A stretch of 64,000 bases of DNA from Maritimibacter sp. (GTDB lineage Bacteria > Pseudomonadota > Alphaproteobacteria > Rhodobacterales > Rhodobacteraceae). The stretch spans positions 25,947 through 89,946 of the forward strand of contig NZVC01000032.1 of assembly GCA_002701395.1 (NCBI GenBank), written 5' to 3'. How positions within the stretch are numbered: position 1 is the stretch's first letter; the number at the start of each line of letters is the position of its first letter. The position numbers and the translations under genes were made by a program. Shown here piece after piece: positions 25,903 through 31,236 of the stretch. Under the pieces are notes generated by a model. It did not search any database and was not told the DNA's origin. It saw only the letters and a program-made list of their open reading frames with translations.

Positions 25903-26652
25903 TCAGGTGAAGATTTTCTGGAACCAAGACAGCGGCAGGTGGCGGCCCACCGTGAACAGCCACGCAAAGGGCTTGGGGAAGCTGTGCGAGAAGCGGTTCG
26001 AGCGGATGCCTTTCAGGACCTCTTGCGCGGCGGCGTCCGGTTCCATGATCTGCGGCATCCGGAAGTCGTTCTTGTCGGTCAGGCGGGTTCGGATGAAGCC
26101 CGGATTGACGCGCTGGACGGTGACGCCGGTGTCCTTCAGGTCGGCGCGCAGGTTTTCCGCCAGATGCATGACCGCCGCCTTCGAGGCGCCGTAGCCCACC
26201 GCGCCGGGCAGGCCCGCGAAGCCAGACAGCGATCCGATCAGCACGATGCGGCCACGGCCACGGCGCAGCAGCGCCGGGACCACCGCGCCAAGGACATTCA
26301 CGCAGCCTATGAAGTTCACCTGCGCCATCTTGCGGACGGCGCCGGCGTTCCAATCGGTCGCCTTCACGGGCTCGTAGAACCCGGCGCCGAAGATGATGCC
26401 ATCGAAATCGCCCGCGGCGAGCACGGCGGCTTGCGCGGCGTCCGGGGCGGTGACGTCCAACGGCAGGGCGCGGGCGTCCGTCAGGCCAGCGGCGAGGTCG
26501 TTCAGGCGATCTTCGCTGCGGGCGGACAGGATCAGGCGGGCGCCCTTGGCGTCCAGCGCCTCGGCCACGGCGCGGCCAAGGCCCTCGGACGCGCCGACGA
26601 TCCACCACGTCTTGCCACGAAAAGGGCCGGTGTCTGGCTCTGTATCAGGCAT
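25903..26652 (-). CDS. Short-chain dehydrogenase/reductase in the RpoE-linked operon
   Basis: 249 residues, classical SDR: WIVGASEGLGRAVAEAL nucleotide loop (about 14-30), conserved IGSLSGFAG serine region, and catalytic YGASK. The start at 26652 overlaps the CFA-synthase stop by 8 bp; a longer frame exists but its extra residues are not SDR-like. It is the last of four genes divergent from rpoE. An SDR belongs to the rpoE-chrR neighbourhood of Rhodobacter as I recall. The substrate is unknown. Confidence 0.85.
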   Translation of the reverse strand: MPDTEPDTGPFRGKTWWIVGASEGLGRAVAEALDAKGARLILSARSEDRLNDLAAGLTDARALPLDVTAPDAAQAAVLAAGDFDGIIFGAGFYEPVKATDWNAGAVRKMAQVNFIGCVNVLGAVVPALLRRGRGRIVLIGSLSGFAGLPGAVGYGASKAAVMHLAENLRADLKDTGVTVQRVNPGFIRTRLTDKNDFRMPQIMEPDAAAQEVLKGIRSNRFSHSFPKPFAWLFTVGRHLPLSWFQKIFT

Positions 26653-27802
26653 GGGCGAGTTCGACCTGCACGACATCGGTGTTCCCCGCCGCGAAAGCGG
26701 CGGAGCAGATGCCAAGGTAATAGCGCCACGAACGCAGGAAGCGTTCATCGAACCCGAGCGCGCGGATGCGGTCGGCCTGCGCGTCGAGCCGGTCCTGCCA
26801 TTCGGCGCAGGTACGGGCATAGTCCTGCCCGAACGAGAACACGTCCTTCACCGCAAGCCCGGCGCGGCGTGCCTGTTCGGCGATGCGGTCGTCGGACAGC
26901 AGCATGCCACCCGGGAAGGTGTACTGACGGATGAAGTCGGACGTGCGCCGGTAGAGGTCGAAGCGGTGATCCGGCACCGTGATTGCCTGCACCACCGCGC
27001 GGCCCCCGTCCGACAAGCGGTTTTTCAGGGTCGCGAAATAGGTCGGCCAATAGGCCTCGCCCACTGCCTCGATCATCTCGATCGACACGATGTGGTCGTA
27101 GGTGCCCTCGCTTTTGCGGTAGTCCTGCAGCCGGATGTCGGCGCGCCCGTCCAGCCGCGCATCGGCATAGCCCTTCTGGGCGTGCGAGATTGTCAGCCCG
27201 GTCACATGACGGCCCTGATCGGCGGCGCGCTCGGCGAAGCCGCCCCAGCCGCAGCCGATTTCAAGGATGCGCTCGCCTTCGGGCAGGCGGTCGAGGATGC
27301 GGTCGTACTTGCGGTCCTGCGCGCGCGACAGGTCGCCGTCCTCTGCCGTGTAAAGCGCCGAGGAATAGGTCATGCCGGGGTCCAGCCAAAGCTGGTAGAA
27401 CTCGTTGCCGACGTCGTAATGGGCGCGGATGTTGCGCGATGCGCCGGTCGGCGAATTGCGGCGCAGGATGCGGTCGGCGATGCGGAACTTCAGCGTCTGC
27501 CAGAACCCGGCGTCAGTAAAGCTGTCGAACTCGTCGTAGTTTTCCAGCGCCAGACCGATCAGCGTCGCGATCGACGGGGTGTCCCACAGGCCGGCGACGT
27601 AAGCCTCGCCCAGTCCGACGTCGGCGCGCGCGGCGGCGGCGGTCACGACGGACCAGTCGTGGATTTCCATCACCGCTTCGGGGGCGCCGTCACCGAATGT
27701 CAGCCAGTCGCCCTCGGGCGTCCGAAGGCGCAGCGTGCCGTTCTTGATGCGCGCGCAGCTGTCTAGGAATTCGCGCCGGACGCGGTCGCTGAGAAACGGC
27801 AT
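26645..27802 (-). CDS. Cyclopropane-fatty-acyl-phospholipid synthase family methyltransferase
   Basis: 385 residues, the usual length. The SAM site is ILEIGCGWGGFAERAADQG (about 186-204), the YDHIVSIEMIEAVGEAYW block supplies active-site residues, and RSWRYYLGICSAAF near the C-terminus has the conserved Cys of the family. It methylates a double bond of a phospholipid acyl chain. In Rhodobacter, relatives under RpoE control belong to the furan-fatty-acid route (UfaM/UfaD/UfaO) and help the singlet-oxygen response. Whether this one makes cyclopropane or methyl-branched chains cannot be told. GGAGATCACC precedes the ATG. Confidence 0.9.
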   Translation of the reverse strand: MPFLSDRVRREFLDSCARIKNGTLRLRTPEGDWLTFGDGAPEAVMEIHDWSVVTAAAARADVGLGEAYVAGLWDTPSIATLIGLALENYDEFDSFTDAGFWQTLKFRIADRILRRNSPTGASRNIRAHYDVGNEFYQLWLDPGMTYSSALYTAEDGDLSRAQDRKYDRILDRLPEGERILEIGCGWGGFAERAADQGRHVTGLTISHAQKGYADARLDGRADIRLQDYRKSEGTYDHIVSIEMIEAVGEAYWPTYFATLKNRLSDGGRAVVQAITVPDHRFDLYRRTSDFIRQYTFPGGMLLSDDRIAEQARRAGLAVKDVFSFGQDYARTCAEWQDRLDAQADRIRALGFDERFLRSWRYYLGICSAAFAAGNTDVVQVELAHA

Positions 27803-27803
27803 T

Positions 27804-28574
27804 TCAGGTGATCTCCTTGGCGGGTGGTTCTGGTCTTGGACGGTAGCGCGCTCCCTTGAGTTTCAAGACGAGAGCCTGCCAGTAGATTAGGGAAATCGTC
27901 CGGATCGCGCCAAGAGGGCGGCGCAGGCTGGCGGCGACGATCCCGCGCGAGGTCAGCGGGCGGCGCGGACCCGTCAGCGTGGCGATCAGGCCCTCGTCCC
28001 CGTTGCGATGAACGATGCGGATCGCGATGCGGTCGGGGCGCATGTCGAAGGTGAACTCGTAATCGCCCGCCACGTCCTGAAACGGCGAGACATGCAGCGC
28101 CTTCTGCGCCGTGATGCGGTCGTGGCGCGTGATTGGGGCGAAGCCGGGCAGGTGGCACAGGTAGCTGTGGCGGTCGTGGAACGGCGTCGACACCTCGGCG
28201 ATCACGGCGCACAGGCTGTCGCCCTCGAACGCAAGCCAGAAGCTGACCGGGTTGAAGGAATAGCCAAGAAATGACGGCTGCGTCAGCAGCAGAAGCTGCC
28301 GGTCGCCCAAGGGGCCCGGTGCGTCAAGGTCGAACCCATGTGCCGCAAGCGCCTCGCGCGCCCAGTCGGCGCCGCGTCCGTCCCCCAGCGGGCCGCCGTG
28401 GTCGCGGTCGCGCACGGCAGCCACGTTGCGCCGGTTGCGCGAGAACAGCCACGGCCCGCCCCGATAGGTTGGGTCGATCAGCACATAGTCCACGCCGTAG
28501 CGGAACCTGTTGCCGATCGACCCGCGCCGGATGTGAGTGGTGGCGCAAGGAATATGTTCGGGGGCGTGGGTCAC
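27804..28574 (-). CDS. DUF1365 family protein
   Basis: 256 residues. Segments such as RFRYGVDYVLIDPTYRGG, FLGYSFNPVSFW and HNRPNE-like CHLPGFAPI regions are typical of DUF1365. The family regularly sits between an FAD amine-oxidase-like gene and a CFA synthase. The start is a GTG whose bases overlap the upstream stop (GTGA). No reaction is proven; a part in fatty-acid modification is inferred from the fixed neighbourhood. Confidence 0.82.
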   Translation of the reverse strand: MTHAPEHIPCATTHIRRGSIGNRFRYGVDYVLIDPTYRGGPWLFSRNRRNVAAVRDRDHGGPLGDGRGADWAREALAAHGFDLDAPGPLGDRQLLLLTQPSFLGYSFNPVSFWLAFEGDSLCAVIAEVSTPFHDRHSYLCHLPGFAPITRHDRITAQKALHVSPFQDVAGDYEFTFDMRPDRIAIRIVHRNGDEGLIATLTGPRRPLTSRGIVAASLRRPLGAIRTISLIYWQALVLKLKGARYRPRPEPPAKEIT

Positions 28575-29860
28575 GCCGCCTGCGTCTGCGGTGTGGCGGC
28601 CTGCATCGCGCGGACGATACGGACCGCACTGGCGAACCCGTCCTCGTGAAACCCATGCCGGGTCCACGCCCCGGCGAACCAGGTGCGATGGGTGCCCTGC
28701 AAACCGTGCAGTCTTTGCTGCGCGGCAAGAGCGGCCTCGTCGAACACCGGATGGCGGAAGGTCGTCTCGTCGTAGGTCAGCGCCTCGTTCACCGGGGTGG
28801 ACGGGTTGAGCGTGACGAACAGCGGGTCGCTTTCGGGAATGTTCTGCAGCCGGTTCATCCAGTAGGTCACGCCGATCGCGGTTTCGGGGCGGCTTGTGTC
28901 GGCCTTGTAGACCCAGCTGGACCACGCCTGACGGCGTCGCGGCATCTGGCGGGTGTCGCGGTGCAGCACCATGCGGTTGTCCTGGAACCGGATGGCCCCA
29001 AGCGTCGCGCTTTCGTCGGCAGAGGGGCGCGCCAGCAGGCGCAGCGCGACGTCGGAGTGACACGCGAAGATCACGTCGTCGTAGCGTTCGGACCCGCTTG
29101 CGGTGCGGATGGTGACACCGGCGGCGTCACGCTCGACCGCCTGCACAGGCGTCCCGGTCCGCATCGCAACACCGTGGCCGCGCAGGTGGTGTTCCAGTCG
29201 GGTGACGTATTCGCGGCTGCCGCCGTCGACCGTCCACCATTGGTGCTGGCCCCCGGCCGACAGCAGGGCGTGATTGCGGAAAAATTGCACCAGCGCGCGG
29301 GCGGGGAAGTCGCGGATCTTTTCGGTGGGGGTCGACCAGATCGCGCCGCACAGCGGGGTCAGGTAGTAATCCTGAAACCATGCGCCAAGGTTCAATTCGT
29401 CCATGAGGTCGCCGATGGTCCCGGTGCCGGCATAGCTTTCGGCCCGCGCGTTGAACCGCAGGATGTCGCGCACCATGCGGGCGAAGCCGGGGCGCAGGGC
29501 GTTGCGGGGCTGGGCCAGCATCGCGCGCAGGCTGCGCAGGGCGTACTCGATCCGGCCATCGTCGATCGTCGCGCCGAAGCTCATGTCGCTTTTCGCCACG
29601 GGCACGTCGAGATCTTGGAACATCCGGGTCAGGTGCGGATAGGTCGCGTAGTTGAAGACGATAAAGCCGGTGTCGACGGGCTGATCGCCGCGCAGGCCCG
29701 CGTTGACGGTGCGGGCGTGACCGCCCAGCCGGGGGGCGGCTTCGTACACGGTGACGGGCCGGCCCGGGGCCAGCAGATAGGCGGCGGCAAGGCCGGAGAT
29801 GCCACCGCCGATGATGGCGACGCGGCCCTGCGGCGAGGTCTGGACGAGATCGAGCGACAT
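28571..29860 (-). CDS. FAD-dependent oxidoreductase (amine-oxidase fold, lipid-modification type)
   Basis: 429 residues. The dinucleotide-binding motif VAIIGGGISGLAAAYLL (about 14-30) is followed by GGHARTVN and DTGFIVFN, as in FAD desaturases/isomerases such as phytoene desaturase. It is the first gene of the operon transcribed away from rpoE. The R. sphaeroides counterpart next to rpoE is RpoE-controlled and tied to furan-fatty-acid formation (desaturation step proposed). The exact step for this protein is an inference. Confidence 0.82.
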   Translation of the reverse strand: MSLDLVQTSPQGRVAIIGGGISGLAAAYLLAPGRPVTVYEAAPRLGGHARTVNAGLRGDQPVDTGFIVFNYATYPHLTRMFQDLDVPVAKSDMSFGATIDDGRIEYALRSLRAMLAQPRNALRPGFARMVRDILRFNARAESYAGTGTIGDLMDELNLGAWFQDYYLTPLCGAIWSTPTEKIRDFPARALVQFFRNHALLSAGGQHQWWTVDGGSREYVTRLEHHLRGHGVAMRTGTPVQAVERDAAGVTIRTASGSERYDDVIFACHSDVALRLLARPSADESATLGAIRFQDNRMVLHRDTRQMPRRRQAWSSWVYKADTSRPETAIGVTYWMNRLQNIPESDPLFVTLNPSTPVNEALTYDETTFRHPVFDEAALAAQQRLHGLQGTHRTWFAGAWTRHGFHEDGFASAVRIVRAMQAATPQTQAA

Positions 29861-29885: not shown

Positions 29886-29914
29886 GGTTACGCGAGCCGC
29901 AAGATTGCGGATCA
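29886..29914 (-). promoter_or_regulatory. RpoE (ECF11-type) promoter for the FAD/DUF1365/CFA/SDR operon
   Basis: Minus strand: TGATCC (29914-29909), exactly 18 bp, then TAACC (29890-29886). The R. sphaeroides RpoE consensus is TGATCC-N18-TAAGA. It is 26 bp before the FAD gene start. Confidence 0.72.
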
Positions 29915-29919
29915 TTTTT

Positions 29920-29948
29920 TGATCCGATGCTGCAAGTGGTCCGTAAGA
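29920..29948 (+). promoter_or_regulatory. RpoE (ECF11-type) autoregulated promoter of rpoE-chrR
   Basis: Perfect match to the RpoE consensus: TGATCC (29920-29925), 18 bp, TAAGA (29944-29948). It lies back to back with the minus-strand promoter; the two -35 boxes are separated only by TTTTT. The transcript should start near 29955. Confidence 0.85.
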
Positions 29949-30040
29949 GCGGTATGCTTATCGGAAACGTGGAACCTGCCGACCTCGAACCGCCTGATCT
30001 TTCAGGTCTTCTGTCGGCGCAGACGGGGACCCGAAAGACG

Positions 30041-30604
30041 GTGCTTAGTAAGCGGGCCGAGTATTCGGACCAGACGTTATGGATGCTGGCGGTGCGCGAC
30101 ACGCGCGACCGGGTGGCGTTCGGTCGCCTGTTCGACCATTTCGCACCTCGCCTGAAGGCGGTGGTGCTGCGGTCGGGCAGCGCGGAAGGGCAGGCCGAGG
30201 AAATCGTGCAGGAGGTCATGCTGACCGTCTGGCGCAAGGCCGCTCAATTCGATCCGGAACGGGCGCAGGTCTCGTCCTGGATCTATCAGATCGCGCGGAA
30301 CCGTCAGATCGACGTTGTCCGCAAGGAAAACCGGCCCGTGCCGGAGGAACTGGGATACGAGGCCGAGGCCGAACCGGATGCAAGCCGGGTCATCGCCGTC
30401 GAAGAGGAATCGGGCAAGCTGCGTGCGGCACTGGGGGCGCTGACCCCCGAGCAACGCAGCGTGATCGAGAAAGCCTATTTCGGCGAGATGACCCATCAGG
30501 ACATCCGCGACGATACCGGGTTGCCGCTAGGCACCATAAAGTCGCGGATCCGGCTTGGGCTGGAACGGCTTCGCCATGAACTGAAAGGACTGCGAGACGA
30601 ATGA
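30041..30604 (+). CDS. rpoE: ECF sigma factor RpoE (singlet-oxygen response)
   Basis: About 187 residues from a GTG at 30041. Region 2 contains FDHFAPRLKAVVLRSG and SWIYQIARNRQIDVVRKE; region 4 contains TGLPLGTIKSRIRLGLERLRHEL. The frame is open further up (ATG at 29954 and 29927), but 29927 lies inside the promoter and 29954 would give a leaderless message, so a start inside the transcript fits family length better. It drives genes against 1O2 and is held by ChrR, whose gene overlaps the stop by 4 bp. Confidence 0.9.
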   Translation: MLSKRAEYSDQTLWMLAVRDTRDRVAFGRLFDHFAPRLKAVVLRSGSAEGQAEEIVQEVMLTVWRKAAQFDPERAQVSSWIYQIARNRQIDVVRKENRPVPEELGYEAEAEPDASRVIAVEEESGKLRAALGALTPEQRSVIEKAYFGEMTHQDIRDDTGLPLGTIKSRIRLGLERLRHELKGLRDE

Positions 30605-31236
30605 CGCAGATTGTGCATCACGTACCGGAACGGTTGCTGGTGGCCTATGCCGCCGGCACGTTGCCGCAGGCGTTTTCGCTTGTGGTCGCGGCGCATGTTT
30701 CGATGTGCGACCAGTGCCGCGCCGCTTTGGAAGCCCACCATGCGGTGGGTGGGGCGCTGCTGGAAGACGAGCCGAAAAGCGACGTGTCGGGACAGTTGAA
30801 GGCGGACCTGATGTCCCGGCTGGACGACGCCGTGCCGGACGAACCCGTCTATCGCCGTCAAGGGCCGTTCCCGGCCCCGGTGGTTGCGGCCATGCAGGGC
30901 CGCGGCCCGCGCTGGACCAAGCTGGGCGGCGGCGTGAAGCAAAGCATCCTGTCGGCGGATGCCACCGGATCGGTACGGCTTTTGTCGATCCCCGGCGGGC
31001 AGGCCGTCCCAGACCATACGCATGGCGGGCTGGAACTGACGCTGGTGTTGCAGGGTGCTTTCGCGGACGAGACCGGGCGCTTTGGCGCCGGCGATCTGGA
31101 AGTCGCGAACGACGATCTGGAACACAAGCCCATCGCCGAGGCGGGGCCGGACTGCATCTGCCTTGCCGCGACCGATGCGCCGCTGCGGTTCCGTGCGCTG
31201 GTGCCCCGGCTGTTGCAGCCGTTGTTCCGCATCTGA
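30601..31236 (+). CDS. chrR: Zinc-dependent anti-sigma factor ChrR
   Basis: 211 residues. The N-terminal anti-sigma domain has the zinc set His7, His32, Cys36, Cys39 (HVSMCDQC), one residue shifted from the known R. sphaeroides ChrR ligands. The C-terminal cupin has DHTHGGLE (His139, His141, Glu145), His175 and the pair Cys185/Cys187, all needed for the singlet-oxygen response in the model protein. It binds and silences RpoE until singlet oxygen triggers its breakdown. Nothing essential appears missing. Confidence 0.94.
   Translation: MTQIVHHVPERLLVAYAAGTLPQAFSLVVAAHVSMCDQCRAALEAHHAVGGALLEDEPKSDVSGQLKADLMSRLDDAVPDEPVYRRQGPFPAPVVAAMQGRGPRWTKLGGGVKQSILSADATGSVRLLSIPGGQAVPDHTHGGLELTLVLQGAFADETGRFGAGDLEVANDDLEHKPIAEAGPDCICLAATDAPLRFRALVPRLLQPLFRI

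Follow-up and report, generated by a model that had tools for sequence, protein, structure and literature searches.

The nearest described counterpart of the locus considered here is in R. sphaeroides, where, in the available text of PMC3818230, the rpoEchrR and RSP_1091-1087 operons each have an RpoE promoter and are both induced by RpoE under singlet oxygen. The same text gives RSP_1091/1090 as required for the breakdown of ChrR, an arrangement that its authors term a positive regulatory loop and that is demonstrated in that organism. UfaD is RSP1091, and the accessible portion of PMC7380195 states that UfaD and UfaO are both required for furan fatty acid synthesis in R. sphaeroides; a review, in the part available, places rpoEchrR and the furan genes within a conserved core regulon of about eight genes (PMC6852236). 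The pattern by which autoregulated ECF11 promoters are recognized, TGATCC-N16-CGTA, is also the consensus that the portion available of PMC5507510 prints for the P. syringae RpoE-type sigma factor, and Shewanella RpoE2 promoters are given with the same motifs in that of PMC4336711.

The Maritimibacter sp. locus analyzed here has the same head genes as that of R. sphaeroides in the same divergent order, with an RpoE promoter on each side and with ChrR (PMC3818230 and PMC7380195, both available in part), whereas its operon carries CMAS and SDR genes after ufaO and its −35 boxes stand 5 bp apart. Bidirectional promoters with a shared −10 element likewise yield starts in both directions within a small region, and in the accessible text describing them these starts lie 7–25 bp apart around a common −10 (PMC10268837); here, in contrast, it is the −35 flanks that meet, and the predicted starts fall outside that range, at about 74 bp. 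Alphaproteobacterial leaderless mRNAs, of which the available text of PMC3616915 counts 171 in S. meliloti, begin directly with their start codon, as would be expected here for rpoE, with the difference that in the present case leaderlessness would go with an autoregulated ECF promoter and extend across a family, and that the starts are predicted. Among the open-licence PubMed Central matches listed, none reports tight spacing or a leaderless rpoE in the text available. The circuit and its loop are already known, and the interesting part is the register between promoter and AUG.

The Divergent Promoter Pair and Its Genes

The analysis covers one 64 kb stretch of Maritimibacter sp. DNA (the window, to which coordinates refer unless stated otherwise), in which a promoter pair separates rpoE-chrR from a ufaD/ufaO-like FAD/DUF1365/CMAS/SDR operon. 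GGATCA (29909–29914), TTTTT (29915–29919) and TGATCC (29920–29925) form a palindrome, and each strand carries a perfect RpoE (ECF11) promoter, TGATCC-N16-CGTA, with the −35 boxes 5 bp apart. On the plus strand, the rpoE promoter has its −35 box TGATCC at 29920–29925 and its −10 motif CGTA, which matches the published consensus, at 29942–29945; on the minus strand, the promoter of the ufaD-type operon has its −35 box at 29909–29914 and, 16 bp away, a pattern match to CGTA at 29889–29892. This bears out a preliminary description of this DNA, which had proposed two back-to-back RpoE promoters with −35 boxes five T apart, and whose TGATCC-N18-TAAGA (plus) and N18-TAACC (minus) are equivalent to TGATCC-N16-CGTA on each strand. 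Counts against shuffled sequence point the same way: the palindrome GGATCA-N5-TGATCC occurs once in the window and in 0 of 100 shuffles, and TGATCC-N17–19-TAA has two matches in the window, both in the promoter pair, against 0.25 expected, a count of two being reached in 3 of 100 shuffles. The start codons of rpoE and the ufaD-like gene have 93 bp between them. In the organism's own genome, 30 loci read out of 81 looser matches contain nine TGATCC-N16-CGTA sites, four of which are the window's two promoters met twice, with the other five elsewhere. The assembly has a listed completeness of 100% and a contamination of 9.02%, and the closest named RpoE is that of Maritimibacter sp. ih11 (95%, L096).

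With the ATG that lies 8 nt beyond CGTA as its predicted leaderless start, the ECF11 sigma factor gene rpoE spans 29954–30604 on the plus strand (216 aa); a program-made list of open reading frames put its start at 29927, within the promoter. The best solved structure for its product is R. sphaeroides SigE (2q1z_A, E = 1.9e-56). The gene for the zinc/cupin anti-sigma factor, chrR (30601–31236, plus strand), overlaps the rpoE stop in ATGA and is assigned from profile matches, with TIGR02451 at 207.7 bits against a cut-off of 124.5, Cupin_7 over its cut-off, zf-HC2 slightly under (20.2 vs 22.2), and the narrower NF051881 also under (149 vs 300). The locus therefore holds what marks an ECF11 RpoE–ChrR system, namely a SigE homologue and an adjoining ChrR with zinc-finger and cupin regions.

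All four genes of the minus-strand operon are likewise assigned from profile matches. The first is a FAD amine-oxidase-type, ufaD-like gene (28571–29860), whose ATG lies 28 nt after its −10 and is preceded by the purine-rich GAGGGGAA. It is followed by a ufaO-like DUF1365 gene (27804–28574), with a probable GTG start overlapping the ufaD stop, a gene of the CMAS/cyclopropane-fatty-acid-synthase family (26645–27802), and an SDR gene (predicted extent 25903–26649). UfaD (FAD) and UfaO (DUF1365) genes adjoining under an RpoE promoter identify this as a putative ufa operon, and its one CMAS-family gene is compatible with either ufaM, the UfaM methyltransferase gene, or cfa. The profile matches and the structure match also agree with the neighbors named in the preliminary description, i.e., a sigma factor plus ChrR on one side and FAD/DUF1365/CMAS-CFA/SDR genes on the minus strand.

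Conservation and Spacing of the Pair

The complete double promoter with a 0–30 bp centre was found in 70 of 394 genomes of the family, with 0 matches to the reversed control pattern, and a class-wide scan found it in 16 of 385 genomes, two of which (the organism's own and G210) belong to the window's family. Among 80 named loci, 77 have ufaD in the DNA fetched, 49 of them in the window's gene order and 28 in another order. The pair is present in all 49 loci of the window's order, with a gap of 3–7 bp in 40 (4 bp in 23 and 5 bp in 10). For a larger set, biased to relatives of the window's RpoE and of R. sphaeroides RpoE, 170 loci were examined, of which 165 have an rpoE match and 124 have a divergent ufaD adjoining; four of these are without a recognized pair (L193, L198, L200 and L203), leaving 120, then 107 after removal of duplicates, and 106 after exclusion of L201 (three mismatches). 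The gap in these 106 loci is 3–8 bp in 55 and 10–138 bp in 51. The tight centres (3–8 bp) are 96% A/T (249 of 260 bases over the 55 loci), and 43 of the 55 have a centre of 4 or 5 bp. The A/T centre is not absolute, as the plasmid-borne Qingshengfaniella locus L222, which lies outside the 106-locus set, has the 5-bp centre TCTGG.

None of the genomes searched proved to be that of R. sphaeroides itself, the best match to its RpoE being 77%, and the 25 paired loci fetched with that protein have gaps of 12–138 bp (L201, with its three mismatches, is among them). We note also that two Celeribacter loci, L109 and L131, have a minus promoter that reads TGATCT and a gap of 16 or 15 bp, together with a second GGATCA 4 bp from the plus −35 box, as if some 11–12 bp had been inserted along with a spare −35 box, and that a third, L126, has a plain 4-bp gap.

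The history of the gap was followed on a tree of the RpoE, ChrR and FAD proteins (107 rows), a quick tree in which many branches are weakly supported. One clade has no tight gap (31 loose, 1 unscored) and contains all 25 paired loci fetched with R. sphaeroides RpoE; the other, which is the window's, has 55 tight and 20 loose gaps. At least 11 changes between tight and loose are needed on this tree, and at least seven when only well-supported branches are counted, where shuffled labels average 35.5. Of 25 independent pairings of tight relatives, 10 show a difference in gap length, of 1–3 bp, in a comparison where pairs picked within the 3–8 bp class cannot differ by more than 5. The indel rate per site is 0.27 (0.13–0.49) in tight gaps versus at least 0.29 in loose gaps, where 24 of 24 pairs differ, and is thus not clearly reduced in the tight pairs. 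With rates this similar, the persistence of the tight gap can be explained in good part by the shortness of the target alone, and we do not claim selection for overlap, of which the indel-rate comparison gave no signal.

In the window's clade, the A/T fraction of the 4 bp beside the −35 box is raised at loose pairs as well (0.68 and 0.78, n = 20), and it is 0.70 where an rpoE gene has no adjoining ufaD, as measured at the best candidate promoter of each (n = 31, some with mismatches). Upstream A/T was considered, and rejected, as a trait of all RpoE promoters, the other clade not being raised (0.42 and 0.53). In tight pairs, a single A/T tract may serve both promoters.

These observations bear directly on whether the tight gap has any function. 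If the promoters fire independently, with no functional interference, the gap would be a neutral compaction, maintained perhaps because each promoter requires A/T immediately upstream, and this is what one would read from an indel rate in tight gaps not clearly under that of loose ones, from the changes between tight and loose forced by well-supported branches, and from A/T raised also at loose pairs and at rpoE promoters without an adjoining ufaD. Such independence is harder to reconcile with predicted starts about 74 bp apart, which would leave little room for two polymerases, and with gaps that differ between paired tight relatives by only 1–3 bp, even though the class itself limits the difference to 5. 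On balance, we regard independent firing as a real possibility, if one that falls somewhat short of an even chance.

Register of the Predicted rpoE Start Codon

At 29954, 8 nt after the CGTA of the rpoE promoter, the window has an ATG in frame with rpoE, a feature absent from the preliminary description. Among 147 distinct loci with the strict promoter, an ATG stands at exactly this distance in 138, is in frame in all 138, and in 137 of these reads through to the conserved domain without an intervening stop. It is present in 106 of 108 loci with ufaD beside rpoE and in 32 of 39 others, the next commonest ATG offsets among the 108 being 11 (17 loci), 0 (10) and 14 (9). The nine loci without it comprise six from the class-wide set, which suggests that other families may not follow the rule, and three with an ATG at 9, 10 or 11 nt (in L176 the ATG is at 10, out of frame). 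A looser scan that accepted an ATG 4–14 nt after CGTA was positive in 348 of 394 genomes and gave at least 13 hits for the reversed control.

In all 103 tree loci that have the +8 ATG, the nucleotides between it and the conserved domain divide evenly into codons, 22–52 of them in 20 lengths, and independent pairs that differ in the distance from the −10 to the domain do so by multiples of three in 30 of 31 cases (tight 11/11, loose 19/20), the one exception involving L176. From the conserved frame and the whole-codon pattern, it is very likely that this N-terminal stretch is translated from the +8 ATG. Transcription is expected to begin about 8 nt after an ECF −10, and since this is where the ATG stands, the rpoE mRNA is probably leaderless, starting at 29954 as judged from the sequence and encoding a variable N-terminal extension. 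The amino acids of this extension appear hardly constrained, as the excess of differences at third codon positions is weak (83:81:103 in 14 close pairs); its second residue is Leu in 68 of 103 loci. The solved R. sphaeroides SigE chain, at 184 residues, seems to be without the extension.

Were rpoE instead to have an ordinary leader and to be translated from one of the start codons present downstream (e.g., GTG 30041), with the +8 ATG belonging elsewhere, the weak codon-position signal in the extension would fit, as would the publicly annotated rpoE of Qingshengfaniella alkalisoli (NZ_CP042262.1), which starts at 332125, i.e., 99 nt inside an in-frame ATG standing 8 nt after CGTA (2480 vs a predicted 2381 in L222). 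It would leave both the exact placement of an in-frame ATG in 138 of 147 loci and the whole codons in 103 of 103 without explanation, and we consider an ordinary leader to be quite improbable.

The 8-nt register was rejected as a rule of all these promoters, because the distance from CGTA to the ufaD ATG is mostly 28–30 nt (71 of 156 rows, duplicates included) and is 8 nt in 5 of the 156. In the second gene order, DUF1365-SDR and FAD-CFA form two divergent units downstream of chrR (28 of 77 named loci, e.g., L099, L102 and L107), with a recognized RpoE promoter pair at gaps of 17–90 bp in 22 of the 28. In all 22, ufaO has an in-frame, open ATG 8–12 nt after CGTA, which suggests that near-leaderless messages may recur in this regulon. 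The predicted combination of a leaderless or near-leaderless arm with a led arm would thereby return in this second order.

Probable Co-Induction and Possible Competition between the Two Promoters

We consider it likely that the region is a compact two-way autoregulatory promoter of the RpoE–ChrR (ECF11) system, including a leaderless rpoE and co-induction of the two operons. Its promoters, gene content and conservation, together with the register and frame of the start codon, are read here from the DNA, and co-induction and the loop are taken over from the R. sphaeroides papers. Once ChrR is destroyed, free RpoE would direct RNA polymerase to the two perfect back-to-back promoters; the plus transcript, probably leaderless, would run straight into the rpoE start codon and on into chrR, and the minus transcript, with a predicted leader of about 20 nt that includes a Shine-Dalgarno-like stretch, would supply the ufaD-ufaO-CMAS-SDR enzymes, so that both operons would be induced together. 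By analogy with R. sphaeroides, where the ufa products help to destroy ChrR, the promoter pair would close a positive loop.

With the −35 boxes so close, two holoenzymes would probably hinder each other, and we infer steric exclusion and its effect in the same way as the transcript starts and leaderless translation. The proposal in the preliminary description that two holoenzymes could hardly sit there together thus stands as far as mutual hindrance is concerned, which is probable given the roughly 74 bp between the predicted starts, and is weaker as regards outright exclusion. For comparison, the available text of PMC4469952 applies the term partly overlapping to divergent promoters of E. coli whose starts are separated by 64 bp. 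The expected outcome of such hindrance would be a roughly constant ratio of the two transcripts and a ceiling on total output, with no switch.

The consequences of exclusion were explored in a kinetic model of binding, unbinding and escape, in which both promoters use the same holoenzyme and E runs from 0.01 to 1000. With exclusive occupancy, the output ratio is unchanged over this entire range and the sum saturates, whereas with independent promoters of unequal strength the ratio drifts. Exclusion, if real, would therefore act as a splitter with a ceiling. We tentatively suggest, while considering it unlikely, that the overlapped pair is a fixed-ratio splitter of this kind, in which holoenzyme exclusion would hold rpoE-chrR:ufa transcription in one proportion whatever the amount of free RpoE and cap the positive loop, and the protein ratio would be set by the difference between a leaderless rpoE message and a ufaD message with a Shine-Dalgarno leader.

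The preliminary description had gone on to propose a built-in switch, in which competition would force a choice between making sigma/anti-sigma and making lipid enzymes. The 5-bp spacing of the −35 boxes, and gaps of 3–7 bp in 40 of the 49 named loci, would suit competition of this sort, but the two R. sphaeroides operons are co-induced in a positive loop in the available text of PMC3818230. Furthermore, exclusion with one shared activator keeps the ratio constant in the model and caps only the sum, and the 51 of 106 loci that keep this gene order with gaps of 10–138 bp indicate that overlap is unnecessary for the arrangement, such that a switch is highly improbable. Least probable of all is that a dimeric regulator (also) binds the palindrome GGATCA-N4/5-TGATCC, a reading for which the dyad half-sites about one helical turn apart and the 4 or 5 bp centre of 43 of the 55 tight loci could be cited, since both −10 motifs stay at 16 bp, relatives retain the two halves even with as much as 138 bp between them, and a spacing of 3–8 bp seems too variable for most dimer sites.

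Conclusions

The analysis locates a published stress loop on the 93 bp between two start codons. The natural variants of the compact two-way promoter, in which the same promoters stand at gaps of 3–138 bp, suit tests of how near divergent promoters can come before their polymerases interfere. Across a large bacterial family, the message of this sigma factor is predicted to be leaderless, and, if so, rpoE start codons in public records may be misplaced; in the one annotated relative read, the shift would be 33 codons.
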